Positions 16,455 through 58,356 of a stretch of 64,000 nucleotides of DNA are shown here, piece by piece (positions within the stretch are counted from its first letter, which is position 1; each line of letters begins with the position of its first letter). Origin of the DNA: Basidiobolus meristosporus CBS 931.73 (taxonomy: Eukaryota > Basidiobolomycota > Basidiobolomycetes > Basidiobolales > Basidiobolaceae); the NCBI GenBank assembly GCA_002104905.1, contig MCFE01000087.1, positions 1-64,000 on the forward strand, written 5' to 3'. The position numbers and the translations under genes were made by a program. Below the pieces are notes generated by a model. The model saw only the letters and a program-made list of their open reading frames with translations. It had not been told where the DNA came from and did not search any database.

Positions 16455-16525
16455 TGCGCCGTCCGGGAATCGAACCCGGGGCTAAAGCTTGGGAAGCTTC
16501 AATTCTACCACTGTACTAACGGCGC
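16455..16525 (-). tRNA. tRNA-Gly (CCC), copy 5
   Basis: Identical gene with a T4 run downstream. Its 5' end (16525) is followed after 10 nt by LTR family A. Confidence 0.95.
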
Positions 16526-16535
16526 CTCTATATTT

Positions 16536-16857
16536 TGTTATAGAGTAAGGAGTCAGTCGATGTCAAGTGACATCAACGCGTACAAAGACGACTTAGCAGC
16601 CAGGGAAAAGCAAAACAAGACAAATCACCAGACTCACAATAAGGTATAAATACCAATCAAACAATCAAATAAAGGGAGAAGTTTGGTTAGAAGCAGGAAG
16701 AGCGGTAGAAACGAATATTATTTTGAATATATTTCTACTAGTCACCATCCTAAACTCTGAAGAGATATTCTTACACTACTCCATCGAATCTACGAGATAA
16801 CATACACGTTATCTAATTCCGTACTCTTTAAAGGCATTACTCTTCAGGTACGTAACG
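16536..16857 (+). mobile_element. Solo LTR, family A, upstream of tRNA-Gly copy 5
   Basis: This 322-bp unit starts TGTTAT and ends CGTAACG. It is homologous along its length to 40155-40476 and, inverted, to 40804-41088, 46502-46824 and 54908-55234. It contains a TATA-like 'ggtataaat' in the middle. No primer-binding site follows, so it is a solo LTR. It lies 10 nt from the tRNA 5' end. Confidence 0.85.
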
Positions 16858-17601
16858 AATCGATTAACGACCACGATAGACCTTAACCAAAATATGATGA
16901 TTTCAAAACCGAATTTTACAGTGCATTAGGATGTAGCGCCTATATCTTTCAGTTTATGTAAAAGATAGTAGTTCTCACTATACGTAGTATAAATTGGTGC
17001 TCTGAGTGTGGCTCATAAGTAGCTGCAATAAGCAAGGAGCTACACCATTGCTATCTCTGTGTGAAGTTTTGTAGTAGCTTAGATACATAATTCTGGCATT
17101 TTTACACATGTTATAAACTATTTTGAATGGCAAGTTCTCTTCTGCATTAGTTGAAGGTTTAACGATATCCCAATACGGTGTAACAATGGTTGGAGCATGT
17201 TTTAACTGACTTGTAATCCACTTCATATTCACACTGTGGAAATCTAGCTGAGAACAAATCAATAAACCTGCTGGCCATTCATTGGTCGAGCTAAGGGCTA
17301 TGGAAGTTGTGGAGTAGATCATTGTTGATGGCTGATCATAGCCCCCAGAGTACATTGGTGTTACTAAAAGGAGATTTCCAATTTCCAAATAATGGCCGCT
17401 TAGTACCAGAACCCTCTATCACCAGTTTCAAATAGACAGCGTGAGCTAAGACTCATGAACCCAGGGTTTATAAATAGGATTCGGATTAATGTCAAGAAAC
17501 ACACAAAGATTCATAGTGCAAAGAAATATATGTATAACGATGAAAAAATTGACAAAAAACAACACAACAGGGTGTTGACTGGCTGTGGTAGCTTTGTATA
17601 A
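16858..17601. other. Region downstream of glyoxalase II
   Basis: A 136-codon minus-strand ORF (17388-16978) is present. It has no recognised motif, and neither its start context nor its composition is persuasive, so I do not call it a gene. Confidence 0.35.
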
Positions 17602-20337: not shown

Positions 20338-20489
20338 TGATCGACTGTAGTATATATTTCTACCAAATGCACACTTGTTGTTAAATATGTCCCTGGTTTA
20401 TAAATAATAAATGTCAATGCTAGTCCTAAGATTCGATGTGTAAATCATAGAGGGGCATGCCGGGCGCATACAGAAAACATTGGTTCTTT

Positions 20490-21325
20490 AATAATATGCA
20501 TCAACCGCATAAAATCATTTTCGAAGAGCCGAAGTTGGTGCATGCGTCCGTGAATCATTATTTGAATGCTTTCCGATTTCCGGCAGTTCGTGTCCATTAG
20601 TCATATGAGGTCTGATCTAACTTGTATGAAATGATGACAGATTTAATGGTGCATGCGCCTAGCCTTATCTTGGCCGTATGAGGTCCTAGAGTTTCTCAAA
20701 AATTATGGTTCAGAGGTATGCGCCGTCCGGGAATCGAACCCGGGGCTAAAGCTTGGGAAGCTTCAATTCTACCACTGTACTAACGGCGCCTCTATATTCG
20801 TGTAATTCTTGGGCATTTCTTGCCATTCATCCCATGCACATCTTCCTTTTCTCTTTCCCAATATTATGGTTACTCTTATGATCCTACCCTCGCAACCATA
20901 GCCTAAAACCCACACTTACTCACAATGTTGAGTGTTAAAGCCACATACACTCTTGCCTTTTGGTTCACGTGCACTCTTACGATTTCCTGCCTTTAACCCT
21001 TTCTTTTATCCCATCTGGTTGGCTATTTGCTCTGATTGTAGTCATGTTGTATTTGTTGTAGGTCAAGTTATTGCGCTCCTCCCCATCAACAGACACGAAG
21101 GCCTAGTTTGTGAGAGTACCGCACCCAACTCGATCCTTGAATCTTCAATTTATATACGGCCTAGTGCTTAATCGACGACTTCCTACACGGAACCATCCTC
21201 ACATAGGTGCTTTTAGATAAATTGTGAATAAAATGCGTTGTAAGGAATGGTTGGGATGGATGGGGCCAACATATACTCCATGCGAAATCCCATCACATGT
21301 GGGATCACCCATGATTTCGGCGAAA
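20490..21325 (-). repeat. Dispersed repeat R1, copy b (inverted)
   Basis: Reverse complement of 12541-13395, including the embedded tRNA-Gly and both flanks. Differences are few and scattered. The two copies form the arms of an ~8.8-kb inverted repeat. Confidence 0.85.
20719..20789 (-). tRNA. tRNA-Gly (CCC), copy 6
   Basis: Identical gene on the minus strand, within inverted repeat R1b. Both flanks match those of copy 2. Confidence 0.95.
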
Positions 21326-21595
21326 TTTGCTGATATCATGGAGTTATGGATAATATCCGATTTTTGATAAACAGATAGGCGTATGTTTTTCTCAGCATTA
21401 TGATGAAGTAACGCTTTATGGATTAAACTATTATAGGCTTCTCCACAATTTGCTGGCCGGCGTAACTGTTAAAACTGTAGACAACAGCCACTAGCTCTAA
21501 CATTGATATCCATCTGGCCCGATCAAGAATCAGATGGCTATAATAAGGGCAAGCCTCCTTACAAGAGAGGATGATACTATCAATTGGTATTTATT

Positions 21596-22022: not shown

Positions 22023-22049
22023 CTAATCAGTGGGGGCGAATGGATATCT

Positions 22050-22106
22050 ATCGTCTTGTATAATCTCCTGTTGTTGCTATCTATCGTCTTTTATAATCTC
22101 CTATCT
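22050..22106 (+). repeat. Short direct duplication
   Basis: The stretch 'atctatcgtcttgtataat' is repeated almost at once as 'atctatcgtcttttataat', a spaced tandem duplication with a period of about 30 bp upstream of the 117-aa gene. Confidence 0.7.
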
Positions 22107-22720
22107 TCTCTACTTACGTCAACTTCTGCCCATGACGAAGCATTTGTGATGTAAGTGAGAAATAGATTCTAGTGAAGGGTTAGGGTAAATCATAGCTATG
22201 TGGCTTATGTATTGATATGGGATGACGTAGGGAAACTTGGGCTGGGTAGATGGGGTCTTACTCGAAATATAAAGAGCTGACATTGGGAGATTTGCAATCT
22301 TTCACGTTCAGCTTTTCCCAGATTTCAATTGGAATATAATCTGATACCTATGCTACGCTATATAAATAGGTGGATCAAAGGCGTATCGCTTAGAGTCAGA
22401 AAAAATTCCTCGGCAACTACTATTTTGGGACTCCATGAGTGACTCTCACAACTGCTGGCCAGTTTGCCGCGATCATAGGTTGGATAGCATGGTTTGTTGG
22501 CAATTGTTACCTTCATTTCTGACATACAATATGGATCAATCATAACGGAGGAAACTCGGCTTGACGACATTCCCAAACCGAAAATGGAATTTTATCAACT
22601 GCTTAATTAATCTCTTATTTTAACTCACCACGCCAATGCTATCACATTATCTACCATGATTGGGGTTTCAGCTATATAAGAGAAGAACGGTTGAGGGATG
22701 TTTTTCACAGCATCGTCAGA
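22107..22720. other. Intergenic; promoter region of the mucin gene
   Basis: No gene is seen. A 'tatataag' TATA-like box is at about 22673, some 47 bp before the chosen ATG. Confidence 0.4.
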
Positions 22721-25093
22721 ATGAAAAATTTACACTCAGTTACTTTCTTCTTACTAGTCATAGGAAACACTGCGTTAAGGAGTGCATCTGCTCCATTTCC
22801 AGGTAAGGGAGATTGGCTTTTCCTCCTCAAGAGTTTCGATCATAATCTGTACCTTGCAGGAACTAGCGATGTTGTCAACCCTTTGAGAACTGACTCAACT
22901 CTAAGTCAAACCGATTCATCTGATAAGACCGATACATCGTTTGACTCTACTGATCGCCAAACTTCCGAACCAACTTGGACTTCACGTACCTCAAAATCGG
23001 TCGTTGACTCAACAACCGATGTCCTCACTACCTCGTCCACATCTGAGAGACCTTCTCAAATTTCTACCACAGGCAACGAAACCCCTACCTCGACATCAAC
23101 AACTCAAGACCCAACAGACAAATCTCCCACTCCTTCAGCAACTGAAGAGCCAACCGCTACCACCTCAGATCCACCTACAAGTCGTATGACAACAGACACA
23201 CATTCGGTTTCTTCAGTAGACTCTACTACATCAGCTTCACCCACCAGCCAGGATCCAACAGATATTTCCACTCCCGCGACAACCATAGAGCCGACCTCTA
23301 CCACCTCAGACCCACCCACAACTCAGGTACCAACGGACCCTACTACCTCAGCTTCACCTACCAGTCAAGATCCAACAGATATTTCTACCCCTATCACGAC
23401 CGAAGAGCCGACCCCTACCACCTCAGACCCACCCACAACCCAGATGCCAACGGACCCTACTACCTCAGCCACACCCACTAGTCAAGATCCAACAGATATT
23501 TCCACTCCCGCAACAACCATAGAGCCGACCCCTACCACCTCAGACCCACCCACAACTCAGATGCCAACGGACCCTACTACCTCAGCTTCACCTACCAGTC
23601 AAGATCCAACAGATATTTCTACCCCTATTACGACTGAAGAGCCGACCTCTACCACCTCAGAACCACCCACAACTCAGATGCCAACGGACCCTACTACCCC
23701 GGCCTCGCCCACTAGTCAGGATCCAACAGATATTTCCACTCCCGCAACAACCATAGAGCCGACCCCTACCACCTCAGACCCACCCACAACTCAGATGCCA
23801 ACGGACCCTACTACCTCAGCTTCACCTACCAGTCAAGATCTAACAGATATTTCTACCCCTATTACGACTGAAGAGCCGACCTCTACCACCTCAGAACCAC
23901 CCACAACTCAGATGCCAACGGACCCTACTACCCCGGCCTCGCCCACTAGTCAGGATCCAACAGATATTTCCACTCCCGTAACAACCATAGAGCCGAACCC
24001 CACGACCTCAGGGCCGCCCACCACTCAGGTACCAACGGACCCTACTACCTCAGCTTCACCTACCAGTCAAGATCCAACAGATATTTCTACTCCTATCACG
24101 ACCGGAGAGCCGACCACTACCACCTCAGACCCACCCACAACTCAGATGCCAACGGACCCTACTACCCCGGCCTCGCCCACTAGTCAAGATCCAACAGATA
24201 TTTCCACTCCCGCAACAACCATAGAGCCGAATCCCACTACCTCAGGGCCGCCCACCACTCAGGTACCAACGGACCCTACTACCTCAGCCTCACCCACTAG
24301 CCAAGATCCGACAGATATTTCCACTCCCGCAACAACCATAGAGACGACCCCTAGTACCTCAGATCCACTCACCAGTCGCAGTCCAACAGTAATCTCCACA
24401 CCTTCAGTGACTGAGGAGCCAACTCCAACCACATCAGGCTCACCTACAACTGAGGTACCAACAAATACTCCATCAATTTCATCAATTATATCTATCACCC
24501 CAGATCCATCTATCACTCAGAGTCCTACAGAAATTACTGTTACTCCCTCAACAACACTAGAGCCTACACCCACTACATCGGTACCAACAGATACTTCAGA
24601 TATATCCACAAATCCGTCTACTACACTTGACTCATCTTCAACTCAAGAACCCTCACCAAGCCCCTCTGATACGTCTAAATCTGATATCTCAACAACTGAG
24701 GGCACAGAAACAGTCACATCCAATACTTCGATTTCAACAAACACACAGCCTTCAAGTACAACATCGCTAGAGCCGAGCACCTACTCTGCTTCATATACCA
24801 CGCCAACGTCAGAAACAAGTATAGAAACTAGTAATACTCCCACTAGCACGTTGGTCACCACCGCATTGAGTTCGTTTAGTGGAAGACCTGTGAGCACTCA
24901 ATCCGACGGACAGGTTGTGAATGAGGTTATCGTTACAGCCACCACGACCATTGATGGAGTACAAACGGTTGTATATTCAACCAGTAGAGTGACCGGGCGT
25001 CCATCTTTTCAACTAAATAGCGGCAATACTCACCATCTCTCACAAATCGCATTCACCATTTTTATTGTGGTTTCGATGTACTTTACCATTTAG
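22721..25093 (+). CDS. Ser/Thr/Pro-rich GPI-type cell-wall mucin with 39-aa repeats
   Basis: The ATG at 22721 opens a signal peptide (MKNLHSVTFFLLVIGNTAL). A 57-nt stretch at 22803-22859 has perfect intron borders (CAG/GTAAGG, TTGCAG/G). It is likely a phase-neutral intron, giving about 771 aa; unspliced it would be 790. The middle (about 23230-24360) is ten copies of a 39-aa unit around TSQDPTDISTP and PTTQ[MV]PTDPTT. These alternate between two subtypes (ATTIEP and ITTEEP). The C-terminus holds a conserved module (SDGQVVNEVIVTATTTIDG) and a hydrophobic tail, as expected for GPI attachment. It is predicted to be a heavily O-glycosylated wall or adhesin-like protein. Confidence 0.85.
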   Translation: MKNLHSVTFFLLVIGNTALRSASAPFPGKGDWLFLLKSFDHNLYLAGTSDVVNPLRTDSTLSQTDSSDKTDTSFDSTDRQTSEPTWTSRTSKSVVDSTTDVLTTSSTSERPSQISTTGNETPTSTSTTQDPTDKSPTPSATEEPTATTSDPPTSRMTTDTHSVSSVDSTTSASPTSQDPTDISTPATTIEPTSTTSDPPTTQVPTDPTTSASPTSQDPTDISTPITTEEPTPTTSDPPTTQMPTDPTTSATPTSQDPTDISTPATTIEPTPTTSDPPTTQMPTDPTTSASPTSQDPTDISTPITTEEPTSTTSEPPTTQMPTDPTTPASPTSQDPTDISTPATTIEPTPTTSDPPTTQMPTDPTTSASPTSQDLTDISTPITTEEPTSTTSEPPTTQMPTDPTTPASPTSQDPTDISTPVTTIEPNPTTSGPPTTQVPTDPTTSASPTSQDPTDISTPITTGEPTTTTSDPPTTQMPTDPTTPASPTSQDPTDISTPATTIEPNPTTSGPPTTQVPTDPTTSASPTSQDPTDISTPATTIETTPSTSDPLTSRSPTVISTPSVTEEPTPTTSGSPTTEVPTNTPSISSIISITPDPSITQSPTEITVTPSTTLEPTPTTSVPTDTSDISTNPSTTLDSSSTQEPSPSPSDTSKSDISTTEGTETVTSNTSISTNTQPSSTTSLEPSTYSASYTTPTSETSIETSNTPTSTLVTTALSSFSGRPVSTQSDGQVVNEVIVTATTTIDGVQTVVYSTSRVTGRPSFQLNSGNTHHLSQIAFTIFIVVSMYFTI
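23230..24370 (+). repeat. 117-bp tandem repeat array with 234-bp higher-order period
   Basis: About ten in-frame 117-bp units lie in the mucin gene. Adjacent units differ, but units two apart are nearly identical, so the array expanded as dimers. Confidence 0.85.
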
Positions 25094-40074: not shown

Positions 40075-40145
40075 TGCGCCGTCCGGGAATCGAACCCGGG
40101 GCTAAAGCTTGGGAAGCTTCAATTCTACCACTGTACTAACGGCGC
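40075..40145 (-). tRNA. tRNA-Gly (CCC), copy 9
   Basis: Identical gene on the minus strand with a T4 terminator. The LTR-A element starts 9 nt beyond its 5' end. Confidence 0.95.
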
Positions 40146-40154: not shown

Positions 40155-41088
40155 TGTTACAGAGTAAGGAGTCAGTCGATGTTAAGTGACATCAACGCAT
40201 ATAAAGACAACTTAGTAGCCAGGGAAAAGCAAAACAAGACAACTCACCAGACTCACAATAAGGTATAAATACCCATCAAACAATCAAATAAAGGGGAAGT
40301 TTGGTTAGAAGTAGGTAGAGCGGTAGAAACAAATATTACTTGGAATTTATTTCTACAAGTCACCATCCTATCCTTTTAGCAGATATTCTTACTCTACCCT
40401 GTCAAATCTACAAGATAACATACATGTTATCTGTTTTTGTACTCTCTAAAGGATGTTACTCTTCAAGTACGTAACAGAATTGGTGCTCACAGCAGGGGTA
40501 GTATTAAACAAAAGTAATCTACCTCTCACAAGAAGAACGGGAGATGATCACGCTACAATGGGAACAAAGATTGGCCATGATTAGCAATTTCTCCAGATAC
40601 CAGACCAAGGATCCTTTTGCTTGGCTACGGGAATGTGAAGTCGGTCAAAAGGCAAATCAATGGGATCTAGTAGAACTTCCAATGATGGCAGGTGCTTATA
40701 TGAAGGATCTGGCAGCTACTTGGTATGAAGAAAACAAAGGACTTTTGACAGATTGGGAAACCTTTCAGCAAAGATTTAAAGAAAAATACATCACAATGGC
40801 AAGAAAAAACGGATAACATGTATGTTATCTTGTAGATTTGACAGGGTAGTGTAAGAATATCTATTAAAAGGCTAGGATGGTGACTTGTAGAAATATATTC
40901 CAAGTAATATTTGTTTCTACTGCTCTTCCTACCTCTGACCAAGCTTCCCCTTTACTTGATTGTTTGATTGGTATTTATACCTTCTTGTGAGTCAGGTGAT
41001 TTGTCTTGTTTTGCTTTTCCCTGGCTACTAAGTTGTCTTTGTATGTGTTGATGTCACTTAACATCCAGCAACCCCTTACACTGTAACC
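40155..41088 (+). mobile_element. LTR-A element with inverted LTRs (fold-back derivative)
   Basis: A plus-oriented LTR (40155-40476, TGTTAC...GTAACA) is followed by a candidate primer-binding site (TTGGTGCTCACAGC) and a 273-bp gag fragment. It is closed by an inverted LTR-A (40804-41088) that lacks its outer ~35 bp at the junction. The 5-bp flanks are atatt and acatt, a near-perfect target duplication. The inverted structure may therefore have inserted as a unit 9 nt upstream of tRNA copy 9. Confidence 0.75.
40544..40816 (+). pseudogene. Retrotransposon Gag fragment (family A)
   Basis: A 90-codon ORF reads PFAWLRECEVGQKANQWD..ELPMMAGAYMKDLAATWY...W..FQQRFKEKYI, the central part of a Ty3/gypsy-type Gag (capsid-like) domain. 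It runs straight into the inverted LTR and has no nucleocapsid or Pol. Confidence 0.75.
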
Positions 41089-41399: not shown

Positions 41400-41884
41400 A
41401 AACATAGCTTTGCAATCTCAGTACAATACTGTGAGAGCTAGGGCCCTGCAGTCAATGCACCTATTTCTTGATTTCTTTTCAATGGCATCTTAGATGTAAA
41501 TTGAGACCAAAGACCAACTGGTAATATATGAATGAATAAACACCAGTCTATTTTGCAACAATAGTTGCTAATAGGTAATGAAGGATTTGTATTCATTTCG
41601 GTTAGTGTTATTCAGAATGTTTAGTAATCATAATTGTTCGCACTTTCTCTAGCTTACATCAAAGGTAAGTATACTTAGGGGTTAAGACAGACCAGGGAGC
41701 GGTGGTTCAAATTTGACACCAGTTCCCTTAAAGAAACACTGGACCTCTCTTATGGCTTATTTCCCAAACCCTCTACTTGAATAAAACCATTCTTAGTACC
41801 CACTATCAATATCTACTTGCGCTGGGAACCACAACACATCCTCATCTGTGATTGTGTACTTGCACAAATGAACACCCATTCTCC
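41400..41884. other. Unassigned repeat-rich intergenic DNA
   Basis: No coding signal is seen. A 'ggttcaaatttgacacc' stretch near 41705 resembles a T arm, but no tRNA can be built around it. Confidence 0.35.
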
Positions 41885-42250
41885 CCTTCTCTTATCTCGT
41901 GTGATTGGCTATTTACTCTGATTGTAGTCGTGTTGTATTTGTTGTAGGTCAAGTTATTGCGCTCCTCCCCATCAACAGACACGAAGGCCTAGTTTGTGAG
42001 AGTACCGCACCCAACTCGATCCTTGAATCTTCAATTTATATACGGCCTAGTGCTTAATCGACGACTTCCTACACGGAACCATCCTCACATAGGTGCTTTT
42101 AGATAAATTGTGAATAAAATGCGTTGTAAGGAGTGGTTGGGATGGATGGGGTCAACATATACTCCATGCAAAATCTCATCACATGTGGGATCATCCATAA
42201 TTTGGGAGACGGGATTTTTGTGGGCTTCACCCAAATATGTCGATGGAGCT
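41885..42250 (-). repeat. Dispersed repeat R1, copy d, inserted in a pol gene
   Basis: Partial R1 unit in minus orientation, without a tRNA. At about 42250 it joins an RNase H reading frame ([14 protein letters not shown]), so the repeat lies at a junction inside a retrotransposon pol. Confidence 0.75.
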
Positions 42251-46279: not shown

Positions 46280-46499
46280 TGTTACGCTCGTAGAGGGAAA
46301 TCCCGGCTAAACAGTAAATCTCTTGGGATTCCGGTGAGAGTAAGAGTTGATCCAGGATGCAAGGGAGAAGATACTTTATTCGTGTACAAGTCTATCTGTA
46401 ATAGTTATTCATGGTGTGCTTTATATGCAGTGTGCTAAATTAAGTTTTAGTGATAAATTAGTAATGGATAGGGTTTCTGGTATACTTTACCCTGTAACA
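46280..46499. mobile_element. LTR-B, copy 1
   Basis: TGTTACGC...GTAACA. It is homologous to 46828-47136 ('ttgatccagg.tgcaag', 'agaagatactttatt') but ~80 bp shorter. The two copies are separated only by LTR-A. Confidence 0.7.
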
Positions 46500-46501: not shown

Positions 46502-46824
46502 TGTTATGTGCTTAAAGAGTAATGTCCTTTAGAGAGTACAAAAATGGATAACGTGTATGTTATCTCGTAGATTCAACGGGGTAGTGTAAGAATATCTCTT
46601 CAAAGGTTAGGGTGGTGACTTGTAGAAATAAATTCCAAGTAATATTTGTTTCTACCGCTCTTCCTGCTTCTAACCAAACTTCTCTCTTTATTTGATTGTT
46701 TGACTTGTATTTATACCTTATTGTGAGTCTGGTGATTTGTCTTGTTTTGCTTTTCTCTGGCTACTAAGTTGTCTTTGTACTCATTGGTGTCACTTAACAT
46801 CAAGTGACTCCTTACTCTGTAACA
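46502..46824 (-). mobile_element. Solo LTR, family A
   Basis: Full-length LTR-A in minus orientation, between the two LTR-B copies. No matching 5-bp target duplication is seen, so recombination may have shaped this junction. Confidence 0.8.
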
Positions 46825-46827
46825 AGT

Positions 46828-47136
46828 TGTCATGCTCATTGAAGAAAATCTTAGTTAAGCAGTGTATCTTTTGGGATTCTGGATAGGGTAGAGTTGATCC
46901 AGGTTGCAAGTAAGAAGATACTTTATTTGTGTACAAACCTGTCTGCAATTGTTATTCATAGTGTGCCTTTTATACTGTGTGTGCTAATTAGGTTTCAGTG
47001 ATAAACTAGTGATAAATTGATGCTAGATAGGGTTTTGGTCAGAGTAACTCTATTTGATTGCCTTATATCCATACAGATGGTTGTCTTTTGCAGGGGGCCT
47101 ACCACTTATCCTAGTGGTATATTTTACCCTGTAACA
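46828..47136. mobile_element. LTR-B, copy 2
   Basis: TGTCATGC...GTAACA, 309 bp. It abuts LTR-C after only 3 nt. Confidence 0.7.
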
Positions 47137-47247
47137 AGATGTTATGATATTCAGGTCTGGTTCTCCCACTTTGCTGGTGTAACAAGACCTGTCTTTATTT
47201 TTACCACAGGATCTGCTTTTAACACAATTCCCAATTGCTTGCATAGA

Positions 47248-48788
47248 CTATTGTCTCAAGTTTGCCCAACAGTGAGCATATAATGAAGCATTATCACATG
47301 GTGACATAACTATATATGTTGTGATCATCTGAATGTTCTGGTTGGGTTTCAGACTGATAACATTTTCCCCTTCTTCAGTTGATTCTTCTCCTAAAGAATC
47401 TTCAACTTTAAAATACCAAATTTTCTTTTCAGGAAATGGTCCCCCTTGAAGGGCTACTTGGTGGACCAATGTTATCTGTATTTGCTCATCAAGGTCTACT
47501 AGCTGATATGTTGAAAACAGCATAACTCTTCTAATTGTGAATGGTCCCATCCAGTATGGTTGAAACTTCTTGTGGTCTTCCTTACGCATTAAGACTCTTG
47601 TTCCTATCTCAAATTCTTGACTGCTTGCATTCTTGTCATTGTTGTAAAATTTTGTAATTCCTCCTAAATACTCACCTAACTTAGTCACTTAGAGCATTAC
47701 CTTCAAATCCTAGAGAATACTGACCAAATTCCTTGTTGGGATTTACTTCAAATATTTTCACCAAAATATCAGGTACCCAGAATATGAGAATTAGAAAAGT
47801 TGTCCAAACAGCCCCAAACTTTGCACAGATGTTCTTGAGACCTTCCTAACCCTATTTTACATGTTTGTTATGCCAAGACCATGTAAAAGTATTAATACTA
47901 CTTTTACATTCAATAAATCATCAAGTGAAAACCACATAATCTACTTGTTCTCCCAATCACTTCCAATATCTCCAAGACTCTTACAACAGTCATAACATAA
48001 GATCATTTGCTGGCCTTGGTTTTCAAGTTGCTTCAGCACTTCTTCCCTCCTATGATCTAGACTTTCCAATTCTCTGATCTTTCATTCTGCTTCATCATCT
48101 TCATCATCAAGGTCCCAAAGATCTGGATGCAATGTGTCACCAGGTATCATGGGTTCCCTCCCATAGACAAGATAAAAGGGCAAGTATCCTGTAGCTATGC
48201 AAGACTGTATTTGACATGCAAATAGTGCTTGCCGTACAAAATCATCCCATTTATGTTGTGCCCCCTGAACATAAATTGTCAACATTTGGCTAAAGAGTCC
48301 ATTGAAGTGTTCATTAACCCCATTTGTTCTGGGGTGAAAGGCAGATGTTTTTAAATGTTTGATCCCCTGTAATTCTATGTAATTCTTCATGATTCCTTCA
48401 ATGAAGTTTTGTCCTCTATCTGTGAGAATTTCCTCAGTGCATCCAAACTGTAAAGTATTATCTTATACAGAAAAATTGCTACTTCTTTTGCGGTAGCTTT
48501 TCTTATTGATTGGGCAATTGGCCACTTTGTTGTGTGGTCAATTGCCATTAATATCCCCTTGTTACCTCTCCTAGTGTTTGTAAGTCTTCCAATGAAGTCT
48601 AAACTCCAGCTACTAAATGCTGGGACTTGGGGTAACAAATGTAGTGATGCAGCCTGCTGCTTCCTGCTTTTTATTAACTGACAGTTAGGGCAGAATTGTA
48701 TGGCCAGTGCAATATTTTCTGCCATATTTGGCCACTGGTTAGCATACACAGACAATACAGAATTTCTTGGTCTTGATATTTTCTGCAC
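47248..48788 (-). pseudogene. Integrase of element C, interrupted
   Basis: The fragments encode a zinc-binding start (CPNCQLIKSRKQ), the catalytic core (WSLDFIGRL...NGVNEHFNGLF) and a C-terminal GPF/Y-like domain (WMGPFTIRRVM). The repeat at 47692-47996 splits core from C-terminus, and stops break the core. Confidence 0.8.
47692..47996 (+). repeat. LTR-G repeat inserted in element C
   Basis: Matches the copy at 1437-1801. It ends with 'cagtcataaca'. The integrase frame resumes on both sides, which makes this a nested insertion. Confidence 0.7.
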
Positions 48789-49100
48789 AATACTTCTTCA
48801 TTAACTTGGAACTTATCAAGCTCTTATAATACTAACTCATTGACTTCTATAGTTGTTCCCTCAGGGAAGGTCTGGTTGCAACAGTACTCCACCTACTGCC
48901 CAAGATAAGGCATTTGTTGTCAAATAAAAGATTCTTGTGAAATCAGTACTTTTCAATACTGGTATGTTCAATAAAGCTTGCTTCAACCCTTGGGATGCTA
49001 CTTTACAGTTTGCTTCTGGAATTATTCTTGCCACTACATCATCACTGAATGTAGGTGTACTCCATGAGACATAAGTTTTCTTTTTAGCTAAGACAGTGTT

Positions 49101-50201
49101 TTATGCTGCTAATTTGACATCTTGGCTCTTTGTTGGTTGGATTAATAACTTGAGTGTCTTTACCAATACTTCAGAGATGTAATTATCACTTGATCCAATG
49201 TCTAAAATAACTTTCACTGGTTGACTACTAATTTCCACCAGCCACTGAATTACTGGCTTTGTTGGTTCTTCTATTTGCCAATTAAACTCTTCTACCATGT
49301 GTAAGATATGTTGTTCTTTTATTGCATTCAACATTTCTGCAGAGTCTTCTACTTCCACTTTGAACAGGTTATCCTTCTTACACTTAGAACATTCATAAAA
49401 TTGATGGCCTTCTTTTTTGCAATTGGAACACAGATTGTGTTTCATGCAATATTCTTTAGTTTTTTTCTTATTTTGATCCAATGTTTTGGCAGATTCTTGT
49501 CCTTCTTTTCTACCTGCTTAGATATTGCCAAACATAATCTGTTTATATCTTTCTGCCATCATATGTGCTTCTCTAAATGTTTGTGGGTCATGAAACTCCA
49601 CTTCTTTTCTTGTTGATTTTTTTAAACCACAAACATAACAATCAAGTATCTCATCCTTAGAGATACTGTCAATATCCAACAGCAGATTTTTGAAGTGGCT
49701 AGTATAACTACTAACTGTTCCTTTTTGGACTAACTTAGCAAGTTTATATCTGGCTTGCTTTGTAGCTGTTATTGGTTTAAACTCTGTTACTGATTCTTGT
49801 TTGAATTCCCTCCATATCTCAATTTCATCTTCATGACCTTCATTAGACCTTCTTAAATACAATCTCCACCACAATAATGCTCTTCGGATCAGACTTGAAG
49901 TGTATTCAACTTTCTGAGACTGACCAACATTTGTGAACTTCATATACTTCTCAACTTGAAATATCCAAGTGTCCACATTTGATTTTCCTTCATAAGTTTC
50001 AGGCTTTGTCAACTTTACCCAATTAGATCCTGGACTTCCATATGCCTTCAAAATATCTTCTTTTGTAAGCAAATCTTCTTGTGCACTATATTGTGCCTTC
50101 AGCCACTGGTTCTCTTCCTTTAATTCTTGTAATTGCTCTCTTAGCAATGCATTTAAGTCTTCACCAGGGATACTACCTTCAGTACTTTTACTAGTACTCA
50201 T
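49101..50201 (-). pseudogene. Gag and protease start of element C
   Basis: A 227-codon Gag ORF (start 50201) holds a coiled N-terminus (LREQLQELKEENQWLKAQY) and a capsid-like core (ETYEGKSNVDTWIFQVEKYM). A stop separates it from a 126-codon ORF with a CX2CX4HX4C knuckle (CSNCKKEGHQFYEC) and an ILDIGSS motif, where DTGS/DSGA is usual in the protease. Confidence 0.8.
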
Positions 50202-50484
50202 CTTCTCTTCTTTTTCCAGAGGATCTACAATGAATTGTTGCTACCAAATGCTATGATATTCAGGTCCGGTTCTCCCACTTTGCTGGTGTAACAAGGTCTG
50301 TTTTTATTTTTAGCGCTGGATCTGCTTTTAACACAATTCCCAACTGCTTGCATAGACTATTGTCTCAAGTTTGCCCAACAGTGAGCATATATTGAAACAT
50401 CATCACACGGTGATATAACTACATATGTTGTGATCATCTGAATGTTCTGTTTGGGTTTCAGACTATTGTAACAAAAATGTAGAG

Positions 50485-50555
50485 GCGCCGTTAGTACAGT
50501 GGTAGAATTGAAGCTTCCCAAGCTTTAGCCCCGGGTTTGATTCCCGGACGGCGCA
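50485..50555 (+). tRNA. tRNA-Gly (CCC), copy 10, T-loop variant
   Basis: Same gene except that the T loop reads TTTGATT instead of TTCGATT. The invariant C56 is changed by a CpG-to-TpG transition. The fold is otherwise intact and a T5 terminator follows, but B-box function should be weakened. LTR-C ends 11 nt upstream. Confidence 0.85.
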
Positions 50556-51121
50556 TCACCTTTTTCATTTAATCAATGGCATTCCTCGAACCGTCACACT
50601 ACCTCCCAAATTTTGGAGCAACTTTAGAATTTCCAGTAGAAGGGAATCCATGCACTTGTACCATTTCAACGCCGGTTTTCCGTACCATCAAAGTGAAGAG
50701 ATTTAAATTTATGAATCATCAATCTTCCGAAAACACACTGGACCAATTGAAATAATAGGTCGAAATGTGTATGTTTGTAATAGAGTAGTAAGTTAAAGAG
50801 CGGAGTGGCCTTGGTATTCCGGTAAACTTAAGGATCAACTGAGCACAAGTTCCATCAGAGCCCTAAAACTAGGAAATATTGTGGAAACCCACAATAATAG
50901 CAGAAATCATTCCAAATCTTGAAGGAGCTATGTAATTGACAAGAAAAATGAAGTTGGTGTATTTTGAGCACAAACGGGTCAATGCTGAGATCACCCAACT
51001 AGGCTTTGATCCACTGGTGATTTTACAGTTTCTCCAAATGTTGTGTTTTGATGGATATGATATACTCTTGGTTGTACGGTATTCATTTTCGGAGTGCCCG
51101 TAAACGGGAGCAAAAGATTGT

Positions 51122-51192
51122 TGCGCCGTCCGGGAATCAAACCCAGGGCTAAAGCTTGGGAAGCTTCAATTCTACCACTGTACTAACGGCGC
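51122..51192 (-). tRNA. tRNA-Gly (CCC), copy 11, two changes
   Basis: Carries the same C56-to-T change as copy 10 and a second C-to-T change in the T stem, which leaves a mismatch (CTGGG with CCCGG). Both are CpG-to-TpG. It is probably a weak or dead gene. LTR-D starts 11 nt beyond its 5' end. Confidence 0.8.
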
Positions 51193-51413
51193 CTCTGTAT
51201 TTGTGTTATGAAATCCAGGCCAGTTCCCCTCCTTCTGTTTGGTGTAACAAGGTCTGTCCTTTATTTTAGCGTAGGATCTACTTTTTATACATTTCTCAAT
51301 CATTTGCATACAACTTGTCTTACTTTAGCCCATCAGTCTTTGATCATCTTTGATGATTTTTGGTGTTGACGCATCTCTATATGCAACAACTTGCTGCCTG
51401 TTCTGGTTGGGAT

Positions 51414-54133
51414 TCAGACTTTCATAACATTTTCCCCTTCTTCAATTGATTCTTCTCCTGAAGAATCCTCGTCTTTATGGTACCAAACCTTCTTTTTGGG
51501 GAATGGTCCGCCTTGCAATGCTATTTTTAGTCTGTCTTGGTGGACTAGCGTTTTCTGAACTTGGCCACTCATATCTACGAGCTGATATGTTGAGAATGGC
51601 ATTATTCTACTTACAACAAATGGGCCCATCTAGTACGGTTGAAACTTCTTGTGGTCCTCCTTTTGTATTAGAACCTTTGTTCCAACTTCCAGCTCTTGGT
51701 CACCTACATTTTTATCGTATCGCAATTTCATTTGTTGACCTTGACTTTCAAGTCTTTTTATCACTTCCTCTTGCTTGTGGCCTAACGCCTCCAATTCTTG
51801 TATTCTCCATTCTGCTTTATTGTATTCATTGTTGAGATTCCAGAGGTTTGGCCGTACTGTGTCACCTGGGATTTTTGGCTCTTGTCCATATACTAAGTAG
51901 AAGGGTGTATACCCTGTAGGTACATGGCATCATATTTGACACGCAAAAAGTGCCTGTTGCACGGATTCATCCTGTTTGTGGCATGCACCTTGGACATAGG
52001 TTGTTAGCATTCTACAAAACAACCCATTAAAACGTTCATTCACCCCATTAGTTCTAGGGTGAAATGCCAATGTTTTTAAGTGTTTAATTCCTTGCATCCT
52101 AACATAGCTTCCCATTACGCCTTCAATAAAGTTTTGCCCTCTTTTGGTAAGTATTTCTTCTGGGCAACCAAACTGTAACAGTATTTCTTCATACAGGAAC
52201 GTAGCTACCTCTTTTGCTGTAGCTCTTCTTATTGCTTTAGCAATTGGCCACTTTGTGGTGTGGTTTATAGCAGTTAGTATCCATTTGTTACCCTTTTTGT
52301 TTCTGGCAACCTTCCAATGAAGTTTAAACTCCACCAACTAAATGCTGGGACTTGTGGTAATGGGTGAAGTTGTGCCTCTTGTTTTCTTCCCGGCGTGGCT
52401 AACTGACAGTTGGGGCAGAACCAAATAACTTTTGCAATATCTTGAGTCATATTTGGCCACCAGGCTTGAGGCTTCAGTTAGTTTAAGACTCCTTGCACTC
52501 CTAAATGGCCATATGCCTGATGATATTTGCAGATTAGATCTGCGCGCAATATATGTGGGCAAAACAGGATTTCTGGGTCTTGTATTTTTCTGTACAAAAC
52601 TTCTTCATTTATGCAAAACTTGTCTGCTTCCTGTCTTACTAATTCTTTAACTTCTGCAGGGATCTCTTCTGGGAAGGTTTGCTCCTGTAGGTATTGAGGT
52701 ATTAGAGTTGGCCAATCCAACACATCTATCATGAGGATTGTGCTTTCTATTATCTGTTCTTGTGTCTCCTCTTCCATCCTGGAGAGTGCATCGGCTACTT
52801 TATTTGAGCTACCTTTTATGTAGGTGATCTCAAAATTGAATTGTTGCAAGTATTCTATCCAACGCAGCATTCTTCTTGATAAGGTTTTTTGTGTATTAAC
52901 AAATCTTAGACTTGCATGATATGTCTGGATAATACACTTTTTTCCTTCTTGGTAGCATCGCCACACTTTCAAACAAACAATTATTGCCAATAACTCTTTT
53001 TCGTGTGTTGGATAATTATGTTCTGCTGCTGAGAGTTTTCTACTTTTGAACGCAATTGGATGCTCCTGTTTGTCCTGATATTGTGACAGTACTCCCCCTA
53101 CGGCCCATAGTGAAGCATCGGTTGTTAAATAGAAGGTTTTTGAATAATCCGGGCTTTTCAACACTGGGGCGTTTACTAATGCAACCTTCAACTGTTGGAA
53201 TGCAACTTCACATATTTTTGACCAAGTGCACATCCTTTCTTGCTTTAGTAAGTCCATCAGTGGCGCTGCTATCTGTGCAAAGCCTGCTATAAACTTTTGG
53301 TAATATGATGCTAACCCTAGAAACAATTGTAGCTTGGTTATCGAGTTTGGGTATGGCCACTCTTCTATTATCTTTACTTACTTATTGTCAACTTTCAGGC
53401 CTTCTGTGGTAATCACATGTCCTAAATATTCAATTTCTTTTGTATTGAACTGACATTTTTCCTTGTTTGCTACTGATTTTTCTCTTTGCAAAATATCAAA
53501 GACAATTCACAGATGGTCTTGATGTTCTGCTAGTGTTTTGCTATATATTAATATATCATCTAGGTATACTAATATAAATTGATCTAGATATTGATGAAAA
53601 ATGCTATTCATCAATGTCATAAAGGTGGCTAGTGCGTTGGTGAGTCCAAAACTCATTACCACAAACTTGTAATGGCTGTAGCATGTGCAAAATGCTGTTT
53701 TCTCAATATCACCTTCTTGAATTCAGATTTGGTAGTAGCCACCTTTCAGATCTATCTTTGAAAACACCCTTGCACCATTCAGGTTGTCAAACAGTTTGTC
53801 AATTTGGGGGAGTGGGCACTTGTTTTTGATTGTTGCTGAATTTAGGGCTTGATAGTCCACACACAAACAAAGAGACCCCTCCTTCTTCTTAACAAACAAT
53901 ACCGGTGCTTCAAACAGCAATTTACTTGGTCTTATATAACCTTTCTCTAACAATTCAGCTAATTGTTTTTTTAATTCTTGTAGCCCCAATGGACTCATCC
54001 AGTAAGGCTGTTTTGACACCAGTGAGCTGTTTTCTAGATAAATCTTGTGATCCACACTTCTTTTTGGTGGTGAGCCTTTGAGTACTCTGAACACATCTTG
54101 GTACTCATCCAAGATACTTTGGATATCCTGCAT
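51414..54133 (-). pseudogene. Pol of element D
   Basis: The protein fragments read in order RT ([29 protein letters not shown], then [12 protein letters not shown]), RNase H (TTDASLWAVGGVLSQY, KVADALSR), integrase zinc region and core (HHTTKWPIAKAIRRATAKEV, TNGVNERFNGLF), and the C-terminal domain (FSTYQLVDMSGQVQKTLVHQ). Several stops and frameshifts disable it. Confidence 0.85.
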
Positions 54134-54142
54134 GTTGTTGGT

Positions 54143-54629
54143 TTACTTGGTGTCTTCATCTAGAATGCTGTATATAAATTCAACATTGCTTTTGTCTACT
54201 TTCCTTGCTGCTTTAGAAAGTTGTGACTTTCTAATTACAAGTACCTCCTCTTCTTTTAGCAGTTCTGTGTTTGGTTTACAGATTACCTGCCACCTCCCTT
54301 CCTTATATACTGCCACTTCTTGCATTTGCCAATTGATGACAGGATTTTGTTTGTACAATTTTAGAATTTTAGGTATTTTTCAACCTGAAAATCCAAGAAT
54401 CCACATTTGACTTCCCATCAAATGTATCAGGCTTAGCTAACTTTACATGACCGGATTCCAAACTTCCATATGCCTTCAGAATATCTTCTTTAGTAGGCAA
54501 CTCTTCCTGTGCACTATACTGTGCTTTTAGCCACTGGTTCTCTTCTTTCAATTCTTGTAATTGCTCTTGCAGCAATGCATTAATGTCTTCACCAGGGCTG
54601 CTTTCTTTAGTACTCTTGCTAGTACTCAT
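54143..54629 (-). pseudogene. Truncated Gag of element D joined to a pre-RT segment
   Basis: It starts MSTSKSTKESSPGEDINALL, as in element C, but breaks off inside the capsid region. The next frame (54358-54143) is the linker just before RT, so most of Gag and the protease are deleted. Confidence 0.75.
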
Positions 54630-54907
54630 TTTCTTGTAGTTTGGAGGATTATTTGTTGTTTTGCTGCTACCAAATGTTATGAAATGCAGGCCAGTTCCTG
54701 TCCTTCTGTTTGGTGTAACAAGGTCTGTCCTTTATTTTAGCGTAGGATCTACTTTTTATACATTTCTGGATCATTTGCACACAACTTGTCTTACTTTAGC
54801 CCATCAGTCTTTGATCATCTTTGATGATTTTTGGTGTTGACGCATCTCTATATGCAACAACTTGCTGCCTGATTCTGGTTGCAATTCAGACTTTCATAAC
54901 AAAAATA

Positions 54908-55234
54908 TGTTACATACTTAAAGAGTAATGTCCTTTAGAGAGTACAAAAAGGGATAATGTGTATGTTATCTTGTAGATTTGATGGGGTAGTGTAAGAATA
55001 TCTCTTTAAAAGGTTAGGGGGGTGACTTTGTAGAAATATATTCAAGCTAATATTTGTTCCTACTACACTCTTCTGCCTATAACCAAAACTCCCTTTTTAT
55101 TTAGTTGTTTGTTTGGTATTTATACCTTATTGTGAGTCTGGTGATTTGTCTTTGATTTGCTTTTCCCTGGCTACTAAGTCATCTTTGTATGCGTTGATAT
55201 CACTTAACATCGAGTGACTCTTTACTCTGTAACA
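54908..55234 (-). mobile_element. Solo LTR, family A, with target-site duplication
   Basis: TGTTACAT...GTAACA, flanked on both sides by the perfect 5-bp repeat AAATA (54903-54907 and 55235-55239). This proves its edges. It lies 10 nt upstream of tRNA copy 12. Confidence 0.9.
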
Positions 55235-55244
55235 AAATACAGAG

Positions 55245-55315
55245 GCGCCGTTAGTACAGTGGTAGAATTGAAGCTTCCCAAGCTTTAGCCCCGGGTTCGA
55301 TTCCCGGACGGCGCA
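55245..55315 (+). tRNA. tRNA-Gly (CCC), copy 12
   Basis: Identical to the consensus, with a T4 terminator. It is the left end of a convergent cassette with copy 13. Confidence 0.95.
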
Positions 55316-55881
55316 ACGATCTTTTGCTCCCGTTTACGGGCACTCCAAATGTTGTGTTTTGATGGATATGATATACTCTTGGTTGTACGGTATTCATTTT
55401 CGGAGAAACTGTAAAATCACCAGTGGATCAAAGCCTAGTTGGGTGATCTCAGCATTGACCCGTTCGTGCTCAAAATACACCAACTTCATTTTTCTTGTCG
55501 ATCACATAGCTCCTTCAAGATTCGGAATGATTTCTGCTATTATTGTGGGTTTCCGCAATATTTCCTAGTTTTAGGGCTCTGATGGAACTTGTGCTCAGTT
55601 GATCCTTAAGTTTACCGGAATACCAAGGCCACTCCGCTCTTTAACCCACTACTCTATTACAAACATACACATTTCGACCTATTATTTCAATTGGTCCAGT
55701 GTGTTTTCGGAAGATTGATGATTCATAAATTTAAATCTCTTCACTTTGATAGTACGGAAAACCGGCATTGAAATGGTACAAGTGCATGGATTCCCTTCTA
55801 CTGGAAATTCTGAAGTTGCTCCAAAATTTGGGAGGTAGTGTGACGGTTTGAGGAATGCCATTGATTAAATGAAAAAGGTGA

Positions 55882-55952
55882 TGCGCCGTCCGGGAATCGA
55901 ACCCGGGGCTAAAGCTTGGGAAGCTTCAATTCTACCACTGTACTAACGGCGC
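55882..55952 (-). tRNA. tRNA-Gly (CCC), copy 13
   Basis: Identical to the consensus on the minus strand, with a T5 terminator. LTR-E starts 11 nt beyond its 5' end. Confidence 0.95.
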
Positions 55953-55963
55953 CTCTGTATTTG

Positions 55964-58356
55964 TGTTGCAAAATTGTTTATTGACGTCAAGTTAGGTGTT
56001 CCAAAATTTTCAAGAGTCAAGAGGGTTGTTCTGGGTTTCTGGGCATCTGTCCTAACGGTACCTTGAGTTGGTTAATAAATACTGTGTTACTTGGCTGAGG
56101 CTTGATCCTAATCTGGCTTGCATGCTAAGCCCTTAACGGGCGATATTGTAACATACCCCCAATCTTGAGAGGATTCTACTTCGTAAGAATCATCCGCAGG
56201 ATACCAGAACTTGGAGGGCAACGGCTGGTTCTGGTCTAAGCACGCTATCTTGAGTTGTTCCTGGTGAACAAGGTCTTTCTTAACTGCTCCTTGTGGAGAG
56301 GCCAGCTGAAAAGTATGAAATGGTCGAGCCTCTTTGATGATGTAAGGTCCTGTCCAAAGTGGGTCGAATTTCTTGCGCTTGTTGTTCTTTAGTAGTACCC
56401 ATATTCCTGCTTTGAGTTGTGCATTGTTGACTTTTTCTTCTTGTCGTTTCTTCATGTTTGTTGCTTGATTTACAAGGTTTCTTGTGGCGTCGAACCTTGC
56501 GTGTCCCAATGCATCCAGTTCGCGTCTTCGAAATTCCTCGTAATCTTCGTTATTGTCTAGCTTCCATAGGTTGGGTGGTAATAAGTCTCCCGGGATCTTT
56601 GGCTCTACTCCGTAGACTAAGTAGAAGGGCGACTTGCCTGTGGCATAGTGATTTCGAATTCTGCAGGCAAATAGAGCTTGGTGGATGAACTCGTCCCATT
56701 TGTGCGTGGCGCCTTGCACGTATGTGGTTGGTATTTTTCCAAATAAGCCGTTAAAACGCTCGTTAGCTCCATTGGTTCTAGGGTGGTATGCGGATGTCTT
56801 GAGATGCTTAACTTTCATTTTTTCCAGATAGGAGTTCAGTACTCTGTCCATGAAATTTGTCCCTCGGTCTGTCAATATTTCTACGGGGCACCCAAATTGC
56901 ATGAAGATTTCGGTGTAAATAAAGTTGGCTACGGTTGTTGCATAGGCATTGGGGAGAGCCTTTGCAATACACCATTTGGTGGTGTGTTCGATTGCCGTAA
57001 GGATCCATCTGTTTCCTCTTTGTGTTGTGGGTAATTCACCAATAAAATCGAGGCTCCAACGCGTAAAAGCTGGGACGGGGTTGAGAGGATGTAACGGTGT
57101 TACAACTTTGTTCAACGGTTTGGCGAGTTGGCATTGCTGACATGTTTGAATCGCTTGTGCAATGTCTTTTCGCATTTGTGGCCACCAAGCTCGTCGTTTG
57201 ATAATGTCATAAGTTCCCTGTGAGCCTAGGTGGCCAAATCCGTTGTGCATCTTATTGATAGTATCGGCTCGAAATACATGCGGAAGGTATGGTACGGGGC
57301 CGATGTTTTCTAGATGTCGATACAGTACTTCATCTTCTCCAAACGAGAACTTGTGGGCTTTGCTTTTTAGGATATCTTGTATCTCCGTAGGTAGGTCAGC
57401 TGGGATGGTACCGGACGACAGGCATTCTGGTAGGTAACTGGGCCAATCGTGCCGTTGGTCAAGGGTGTTAATAGGTTGCAGGTTGTGGTGTCGTGATAAG
57501 GCATCTGCTGTTGTCATGGCTTCAATGAGGGTTTTGGGGTCCCGGTATTCTACTTCGTGTCGCGTCTGAGGTCGGAGTCCTTGGAGGTAGTATTCTTTCT
57601 GCTCGGCGTCTGGCATGTCGGGAATTTCGAGCATTAGCAGACTGAATTGTTGGTTGTATTCTGTTACTGATTTTGTTTGGTTTAATTTGTACAACTTGTC
57701 ACGGGCGTTCTGTACGGAGTTGACAGGTATGAATTGTTTACGTAAGGCCGTGGTGAATTCGTCCCAGGTATTGATACTTGGGAGTATTCTACGACTAATT
57801 CCTTGGTTATGGAGTTTCCACCATAGTGTTGCTTCTTTTCGAAAAAAGGAGGTTGCGTACTGAATTTTGAATAAGTCAGGGTCATTTGAAAAGGCCAGAT
57901 ATTGCTCCATCTCAAAGATCCAAGTTTCGAGTGTCATGGCTTGCTTTGTTCCATCAAAAGTGTTTGGTTTTGCTAATTTCAAGGTGTTTCCTACAACTGG
58001 TCTGTTCACTGGTTGTGTACTAGATGTAGATAGTCGGAATAATTGTTTTTCCATCTGATCAATGTATGCTTCCATATCTTCGACCGATTCAAATTTGGGG
58101 CGGGACATGTCTGTTGTGCTAATTTCAAGGCTTGGGAGGTGTCAAGAAGGTAATGTTTGTCGCTGCTACCAGTATGTTACGGAATTGTTTATTGAGGTCA
58201 AGTCAGGTGTTCCGGGATTCTCAAGAGTCAAGAGGGTTGTTCTGGGCCCCTGTCCTAACGGTACCTTGAGTTGGTTAATAAATACTGTGTTACTTGGCTG
58301 AGGCTTGATCCTAATCTGGCTTGCATGCTAAGCCCTTAATGGGCGATATTGTAACA
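55964..58356 (-). mobile_element. LTR-E non-autonomous Ty3/gypsy element
   Basis: LTRs of 190 bp (55964-56153) and 182 bp (58175-58356) frame one long minus-strand ORF. Minus-strand order is 5' LTR, TACTGGTAGCAGCGAC primer-binding site (fits the 3' end of an initiator tRNA-Met with an A1:U72 pair), the Gag-integrase ORF, then the 3' LTR. The ORF is intact and the LTRs are similar but not identical. It has no RT of its own, so any mobility needs help from a relative. It lies 11 nt upstream of tRNA copy 13. Confidence 0.88.
56108..58108 (-). CDS. Gag-integrase fusion ORF lacking protease, RT and RNase H
   Basis: An uninterrupted 666-aa ORF. Residues ~45-200 are a Gag capsid-like domain (KPNTFDGTKQAMTLETWIFE...YYLQGLRP). 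At residues 201-206 the reading passes through ADALSR, the motif that normally ends RNase H in Ty3/gypsy Pol. It then continues as integrase: zinc finger H288, H293, C323, C326; catalytic D354, D414, E450 with the exact 35-residue DD35E spacing; and a C-terminal GPY-like domain (WTGPYIIKEARPFHTFQL). The whole stretch from nucleocapsid through RNase H is missing, yet the frame is kept. This implies a deletion, perhaps at a short homology around ADALSR, under some constraint or of recent origin. The ORF runs into the 3' LTR. Confidence 0.88.
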   Translation of the reverse strand: MSRPKFESVEDMEAYIDQMEKQLFRLSTSSTQPVNRPVVGNTLKLAKPNTFDGTKQAMTLETWIFEMEQYLAFSNDPDLFKIQYATSFFRKEATLWWKLHNQGISRRILPSINTWDEFTTALRKQFIPVNSVQNARDKLYKLNQTKSVTEYNQQFSLLMLEIPDMPDAEQKEYYLQGLRPQTRHEVEYRDPKTLIEAMTTADALSRHHNLQPINTLDQRHDWPSYLPECLSSGTIPADLPTEIQDILKSKAHKFSFGEDEVLYRHLENIGPVPYLPHVFRADTINKMHNGFGHLGSQGTYDIIKRRAWWPQMRKDIAQAIQTCQQCQLAKPLNKVVTPLHPLNPVPAFTRWSLDFIGELPTTQRGNRWILTAIEHTTKWCIAKALPNAYATTVANFIYTEIFMQFGCPVEILTDRGTNFMDRVLNSYLEKMKVKHLKTSAYHPRTNGANERFNGLFGKIPTTYVQGATHKWDEFIHQALFACRIRNHYATGKSPFYLVYGVEPKIPGDLLPPNLWKLDNNEDYEEFRRRELDALGHARFDATRNLVNQATNMKKRQEEKVNNAQLKAGIWVLLKNNKRKKFDPLWTGPYIIKEARPFHTFQLASPQGAVKKDLVHQEQLKIACLDQNQPLPSKFWYPADDSYEVESSQDWGYVTISPVKGLACKPD

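Follow-up and report, generated by a model that had tools for sequence, protein, structure and literature searches.

At least seven families of long terminal repeat (LTR) retrotransposons of the fungus Basidiobolus meristosporus CBS 931.73 very probably insert at a single spot upstream of genes transcribed by RNA polymerase III (Pol III), most likely by docking on the transcription initiation machinery. The evidence comes from a 64,000-nt stretch of contig MCFE01000087.1 (positions 1 to 64,000; the window), which contains 13 tRNA-Gly(CCC) genes, and from searches of the assembly (89.0 Mb in 1311 contigs). An earlier note on the window had proposed that four LTR families, A, C, D and E, lie 9–11 nt upstream of tRNA-Gly genes and that this reflects targeting rather than chance.

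LTR junctions upstream of tRNA genes

With LTR edges located by BLAST, using queries cut from the window (A, 327 nt; C and D, 226 nt each; E, 190 nt), the six gaps given in the earlier note proved exact (10, 9 and 10 nt for A, and 11 nt each for C, D and E). The tRNA genes and the LTRs next to them are:

16455..16525, minus strand: tRNA-Gly(CCC) copy 5
16536..16856, minus strand: LTR-A, 10 nt upstream of tRNA copy 5
40075..40145, minus strand: tRNA-Gly(CCC) copy 9
40155..40476, minus strand: LTR-A, 9 nt upstream of tRNA copy 9
50248..50473, plus strand: LTR-C, 11 nt upstream of tRNA copy 10
50485..50555, plus strand: tRNA-Gly(CCC) copy 10
51122..51192, minus strand: tRNA-Gly(CCC) copy 11
51204..51429, minus strand: LTR-D, 11 nt upstream of tRNA copy 11
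54908..55234, plus strand: solo LTR-A, 10 nt upstream of tRNA copy 12; 6 nt from an LTR-D (stacked); AAATA on both sides
55245..55315, plus strand: tRNA-Gly(CCC) copy 12
55882..55952, minus strand: tRNA-Gly(CCC) copy 13
55964..56153, minus strand: LTR-E, 11 nt upstream of tRNA copy 13

The type of LTR end described previously was found in A (TGTTAC/GTAACA), D (TGTTAT/ATAACA) and E (TGTTAC/GCAACA), and the C copy at 50248 starts with TGCTAT and ends with GTAACA. The tRNA copies 10–13 sit in near-identical inverted units (50466-51038 and 55399-55971, 97%; the tRNA units 50485-51192 and 55245-55952 are likewise inverted near-copies), and the same place in copies 10, 11, 12 and 13 bears C, D, A and E, respectively. 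With four different families at one place in near-copies, the junctions are not descendants of one ancestral insertion, the possibility that could have overturned the initial proposal. The C, D and E junctions recur on contig C1045, which is homologous to the window (the tRNA cluster is also repeated) and may be the other haplotype; they thus predate a duplication or the haplotype split, and were counted once each.

Three further LTR families, F (262 nt), G (314 nt) and H (310 nt), came to light around the matches to these LTRs in the assembly, in gaps between a known LTR and a tRNA, so that A, C, D and E were confirmed at tRNA-Gly genes as members of a set of at least seven rather than four. 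Matches in the assembly numbered at least 50 for A, 43 for D, 37 for C and 8 for E (the D and C queries cross-match), and 7 for F, 23 for G and at least 41 for H; the A and H values are lower bounds, as 40 of 76 and 40 of 65 candidates, respectively, were scored. Junction statistics cover 255.7 kb of sequence with 94 tRNA genes called by ARAGORN, in which loci L001-L008 were chosen by tRNA matches and nearly all others by LTR matches, and to which a few cases read by eye belong (C439, C713, and possible pseudo-tRNAs at C946, C1150 and C791).

In this sample an LTR edge lies within 40 nt upstream of 75 tRNA genes and, once the unaligned LTR end bases are subtracted from the BLAST gap, the distance is 6–16 nt in 74 of the 75 junctions, with a mode at 10–11 nt (13, 21, 21 and 11 junctions at 9, 10, 11 and 12 nt). 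The distance plot called for earlier, as run on this sample, therefore shows a peak at 9–12 nt. The sole outlier, at 37 nt (C713), is a tRNA-Ile gene with a truncated duplicate in front of it, the duplicate starting 10 nt from the LTR. When edges up to 100 nt away are considered, 74 of the 76 found on the 5' side are within 20 nt of the tRNA, and none was found within the same distance on the 3' side. By treating junctions of the same family, isotype and orientation that share the tRNA 3' flank or the junction letters as one event, the data collapse to 58 conservative events, which involve seven families (H, 18; A, 17; D, 12; G, 7; C, 2; E and F, 1 each) and ten isotypes (Arg, 14; Leu, 11; Gly, 10; Thr, 8; Pro, 6; Glu, 3; Lys and Ile, 2 each; Ser and Asp, 1 each), 49 of them with a distance of 9–12 nt. 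As to whether other tRNAs are targets, tRNA-Gly is thus only one of ten isotypes, to which 5S genes must be added.

A chance origin was rejected: assuming 7000 Pol III genes, 0.22 of 258 edges would be expected 6–16 nt upstream of one, whereas 66 of 129 near-complete LTRs were found between −3 and 20 nt upstream of a Pol III gene (five genes having been added by hand). Another 19 of these LTRs are stacked behind a Pol III-adjacent LTR and 12 are the other LTR of an element. The conclusion that targeting and not chance is at work, already drawn in the earlier note, is strongly supported by the number of families and of targets (ten isotypes and 5S), the 6–16 nt window, the stacking and the empty 3' side. 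LTRs were also seen by eye to abut degenerate or tRNA-like sequences that ARAGORN does not call (L029, L037 and L080, on C1150, C946 and C185, respectively), which are possibly tRNA-derived repeats serving as targets.

Target duplications are mostly of 4 bp. In family H a 4-bp duplication is present in 10 of the 15 copies with both outer edges in the sequence; in the other families a duplication of 4 or 5 bp was detected in 26 of 56 rows (4 bp in 21, 5 bp in 5), a set in which one D element is listed twice and many of the misses are single LTRs with internal sequence on the other side, and in none of the three C rows and none of the three E rows. The duplicated letters differ from site to site. 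The AAATA direct repeat reported around the A LTR at 54908 is indeed present but, with duplications elsewhere mostly of 4 bp, its fifth letter could be accidental or reflect a variant. Two or more LTRs in series precede 18 of 74 tRNA genes (a nineteenth apparent case is a single C LTR that a deletion has broken in two, and two tRNA pairs among the stacked ones are duplicates), with inter-LTR gaps of 0–7 nt in 15 of 19 instances, as expected if later insertions reuse the same spot and copy 4 bp. Two other explanations of the junctions were discarded, namely that the LTRs are mere duplicated tRNA flanks, since H and A have gag-pol, primer sites and duplications, and that the tRNA is a passenger of the element, since it lies outside the target duplication.

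Family H, the 5S junctions and the element proteins

The H element is 5.4 kb long and its copies are nearly identical (98–100% to the query). Besides the founding copy, which was found as filler at a tRNA and was excluded, H adjoins a Pol III gene at 20 of the 26 places examined, 18 being tRNA genes (including one intron-containing tRNA read by eye and one truncated tRNA-Ile) and two 5S genes. Among the six remaining places, one abuts an LTR-A, one perhaps faces a degenerate tRNA and three have one end unread. At both 5S genes (on C16 and C615) the H edge lies 6 nt upstream of the 5S start as defined by Rfam, and the junction letters are identical; the 5' LTR expected for the C615 copy was not found in the small stretch examined there. 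On C1106, an LTR-like end stands before a third 5S gene, again with these six letters between them. Its assignment to family F was rejected because only 26 nt match the F start (96%) and the remainder has no match, so that this end can be described only as F-like over 26 nt. The same six letters precede the 5S genes at C339 and C1291, with different sequence before them. The first base of 5S is the transcription start. Taking into account the 6-nt gap at 5S genes, as opposed to 9–12 nt at tRNA genes, the comparison, which comprises three 5S junctions, suggests that the insertion site may be measured from the Pol III start.

Proteins were read from one copy per family, that is, from internal stretches of A, D and H and from window fragments of C, D and E. 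In the H copy at C1258, one open frame of 1463 aa covers gag, protease, reverse transcriptase (RT), RNase H and integrase; in the A copy at C805, gag (390 aa) and pol (1060 aa) occupy separate frames. Pfam analysis of A gag, A pol and the H polyprotein gave gag followed by the protease–RT–RNase H–integrase (PR-RT-RH-IN) order of Ty3/mdg4 (Metaviridae-type) elements. The D frames look like those of A and H, the Pfam scan of D having covered a window fragment. From their sequences, the families with proteins read are of the Ty3/mdg4 type.

The best match of the A and H proteins among solved chains is Ty3 (7q5b). Both alignments stop at chain residue 1444, with 28 residues left in H and 23 in A, and no Chromo match was found in either with Pfam at E-values up to 1. 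The Ty3 chromodomain occupies integrase residues 446-511, after the SH3 part, and, with the offset assumed for the integrase within the 7q5b chain, the residues left past the aligned stretch leave no room for one, so that the A and H integrases seem to lack a Ty3-type chromodomain. The integrase tails of D and H (L091, L145) share a W-Y...DSSGEE motif past the SH3 part, and that of E (window 56108-58108) has a related W-Y tail; the motif is a candidate for a tether peptide that takes over from the chromodomain.

A tree of 23 RT rows places A among animal and other elements, and D and H with fungal, plant and chromovirus-type elements, the two sides being separated by a branch with 100/100 support. 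Relatives listed from other fungi belong to Rhizopus, Mucor, Lichtheimia, Absidia and Calcarisporiella. The primer site of A matches the 3' end of tRNA-Ile(AAT) plus CCA (L090:7-40, C805), unlike that shared by C, D, E, F and H (TGGTAGCAGC), for which an initiator-Met-like primer tRNA was suspected and a pattern search of the sampled sequence found none. Orientation was assigned by coding strand, which for A and C is the reverse of the query strand. All 27 nearest A copies point away from the tRNA (one more distant copy, on C477, is opposite), and, by event, same and opposite directions relative to the tRNA number 4 and 8 for D, and 11 and 7 for H. With families in two deeply separate lineages that also differ in primer site and in orientation behaviour, the idea that the shared LTR ends reflect one integrase specificity is not supported.

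Further features of the window and the assembly

The remaining LTRs, coding fragments and the neighbouring gene of the window are:

40805..41087, plus strand: LTR-A copy without its first 38 nt, no tRNA contact
46280..46481, plus strand: partial LTR-G copy, in a stack
46502..46824, plus strand: LTR-A within a G-A-G-C series
46828..47136, plus strand: LTR-G copy, 3 nt past A and 2 nt ahead of C; stacked insertions
47139..47355, plus strand: LTR-C, outer LTR of the C element
49518..50201, minus strand: gag-like open reading frame of the C element (Retrotrans_gag, Ty3_capsid)
52478..53326, minus strand: RNase H part of RT, D element fragment
54675..54901, minus strand: second LTR-D
56108..58108, minus strand: open reading frame of the E element, gag and integrase domains (no RT domain reported at E-values up to 0.001)
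58183..58356, minus strand: second LTR-E, 6 nt from an LTR-A fragment (58363-58473)
58758-60548: trehalose-phosphate gene, product 100% identical to a B. meristosporus CBS 931.73 protein

The far side of the LTR-A at 40155..40476 runs into the start of the A primer-binding site, so that it looks like the 5' LTR of an A element rather than a solo LTR. Two tRNA genes flank the D element at 51204-54901; one of its LTRs is 11 nt from the first gene, and the other is parted from the second only by the solo LTR-A. A single insertion touching both genes was rejected because the end letters differ (ATTTG and AAAAT). Without a matching duplication at its ends, the element is probably a recombination product, and LTR recombination may have joined two tRNA loci there.

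A dispersed repeat of 370–870 nt occurs at window positions 12526-13397, 20469-21340, 38983-39498 and 41876-42247, adjoining tRNA copies 2, 6 and 8 and once lying among element remains; three of these places barely exceed the Rfam gathering score of the Aspergillus fumigatus small RNA family Afu_182. The window also holds an 800-aa Ser/Thr/Pro-rich, mucin-like open reading frame over a 117-nt tandem repeat (22691-25093). Elsewhere, tandem tRNA arrays show a fixed spacing of 5227 on C964, 5488 on C339 (where two 5S matches are also 5488 apart) and 4007 on C426. A U6 gene lies 110–125 nt downstream of tRNA-Thr(CGT) on the same strand in four places, and these pairs are possibly linked transcription units:

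C21:14780-15098
C47:164363-164671
C102:160474-160778
C102:1072-1376 (the two C102 pairs are perhaps duplicates)

Proposed mechanism, alternatives and known systems

In the proposed mechanism the integrase complex would dock on the Pol III initiation machinery at the gene, with TFIIIB as the leading candidate for the factor contacted, and strand transfer would take place approximately 6 nt before the transcription start, that is, 9–12 nt ahead of the mature tRNA. Successive insertions at this site would stack LTRs before a gene, with the newest presumably closest to it. The sequence itself shows the position and its independence of isotype, the use of 5S genes by H, the stacking, the predominance of 4-bp duplications and the domains of the A and H proteins; the factor bound, the actual starts of transcription and the order in which stacked LTRs arrived are deduced. 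If the ruler is the same as that of Ty3, tRNA transcripts would start approximately 4 nt before the mature end, a prediction drawn from the 5S and tRNA junctions together, which would explain the seemingly short distance.

Several observations weigh against this mechanism or limit it. Thirty-two of the 129 near-complete LTRs have no Pol III gene in reach; some of these, not all, are mutually stacked or have one end unread (e.g. a G-D-H series on C1057, with gaps of 6 and 4 nt), and the H copy at C16:11006-16381, which lacks a duplication and has no Pol III gene at its ends, is a true exception. A duplication is missing from five of the 15 H copies scored. Three U6 genes (C21, C592 and C237, the last two perhaps duplicates, among 18 above the cut-off in the assembly) carry none of the seven families on their 5' side. 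The founding copies of F, G and H are not independent evidence, since they were found as filler between another LTR and a tRNA. The H junctions at the 5S genes of C16 and C615 are identical in sequence and may be one event, and the F-like end at C1106 is missing from the matches of the F search. The measurement from the start is drawn from the 5S comparison, the start sites of the tRNA genes being predicted from it, and the contact with TFIIIB is entirely our inference, the A and H integrases seeming to lack the Ty3 domain that forms part of that contact.

For the same reason docking on Pol III itself or on TFIIIC instead of TFIIIB, a variant of the proposed mechanism, has to be considered, although it appears rather unlikely. 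The chromodomain that links Ty3 to TFIIIB was not found in A or H, and Ty1 uses Pol III subunits, according to the accessible text of PMC10050235. However, Ty1 spreads over approximately 1 kb upstream of its targets (accessible text of PMC5911963); such a broad, periodic distribution was not observed in the sampled sequence, where the window spans a few nucleotides as in Ty3 and Tj1.

Recognition of the upstream DNA sequence by the integrases, rather than of the Pol III machinery, is considered very unlikely. The last 12 nt before the targeted tRNAs are A-rich (e.g. A in 32 of 58 events at −6 and again at −2), but no position upstream is fixed, the letters upstream of 5S and tRNA genes differ, and so do those of the duplications. 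Even less credit is given to random insertion followed by selection, in which only the elements in the harmless gap just upstream of a tRNA would survive. Insertions inside a tRNA gene would indeed be lost, and the families other than H, which make up 57 of the 75 junction rows, include copies down to 82% identical to the query. Selection would hardly yield a window of a few nucleotides with so few LTRs farther upstream, the 3' side is no less non-coding and yet without LTRs, and the H copies, which their near-identity marks as probably young, occupy the same position. The multiplication of few LTR–tRNA units by segmental duplication is the least probable explanation of all: tRNA genes are themselves duplicated, C1045 repeats window junctions, and C102, C502 and a group of seven Leu(CAG) members are repeats of one another, but the 58 events over ten isotypes are what remains after merging, the duplication letters vary from site to site and tRNA copies 10–13 bear four families.

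Docking on the initiation machinery would place the Basidiobolus elements in a kind of system that is known, from which they depart in host lineage, in how many families are involved, in the 4-bp duplications, in the apparent absence of a chromodomain from A and H, and in the presence of two lineages at one site. With Ty3 and Tj1 they share a narrow window before tRNA genes and other genes of the Pol III class (6–16 nt in 74 of 75 junctions, plus the 5S junctions). Tj1, a Ty3/gypsy element of Schizosaccharomyces japonicus, is described in the accessible text of PMC4600332 as inserting 5–11 bp before the mature tRNA as well as at 5S genes, so that the distance, shorter than that usual for Ty3, which the earlier note had singled out, is not new. 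According to the same text, Tj1 makes a 5-bp duplication, is oriented like its target gene in every Pol III insertion reported and uses 5S sites between −3 and +41. In contrast, the Basidiobolus duplications are mostly of 4 bp, the single same-direction orientation was found in none of A, D and H (A runs away from the gene, D and H in both directions), and a gap of 6 nt remains at every 5S junction observed.

Ty3 of Saccharomyces cerevisiae also targets Pol III starts within a few base pairs, has the same PR-RT-RH-IN order and is the best match among solved structures. Its strand transfer at −6/−2 from the transcription start, as given in the accessible text of PMC8632968, is close to the 6 nt found at 5S, which suggests that the distance from the start resembles that of Ty3 rather than being shorter. 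Ty3 differs in its 5-bp duplication, which is not the rule in Basidiobolus, and in the chromodomain, which contacts TFIIIB and helps to set the position. Chromodomain absence is by itself not unique, since DGLT-A of dictyostelids also lacks one and inserts upstream of tRNA genes, at approximately 15 bp (13–33 bp) and in an amoebozoan host (accessible text of PMC5006619). Other fungal Ty3/gypsy elements near tRNA genes are Ylt1, Tyl3 and Tyl6 of Yarrowia, three families in one species located approximately 5 bp from the tRNA start, and beta/Tca8 of Candida, 6–30 bp from the tRNA, all in ascomycete yeasts (accessible text of PMC5911963). No report of such targeting in Basidiobolus was found in the open-access literature searched, including the accessible text of PMC11105155, subscription journals being mostly outside the search.

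Precise Pol III start-site targeting, known in ascomycete yeasts and amoebae, would thus extend to Basidiobolus, where at least seven families share one spot. It is also conceivable, and we rate it slightly below an even chance, that two deeply separate Ty3/mdg4 lineages in one early-diverging fungus gauge the same Pol III start-site position without the chromodomain ruler of Ty3. If so, either chromodomain-independent docking would be ancestral and the Ty3 chromodomain a later addition, or the site would have been hit upon twice; and the nearly single direction of A, opposite to that of Tj1, would imply an intasome able to sense the polarity of the initiation complex. The A and H integrases, seemingly without a chromodomain, provide a natural experiment for finding the integrase region that determines the position.

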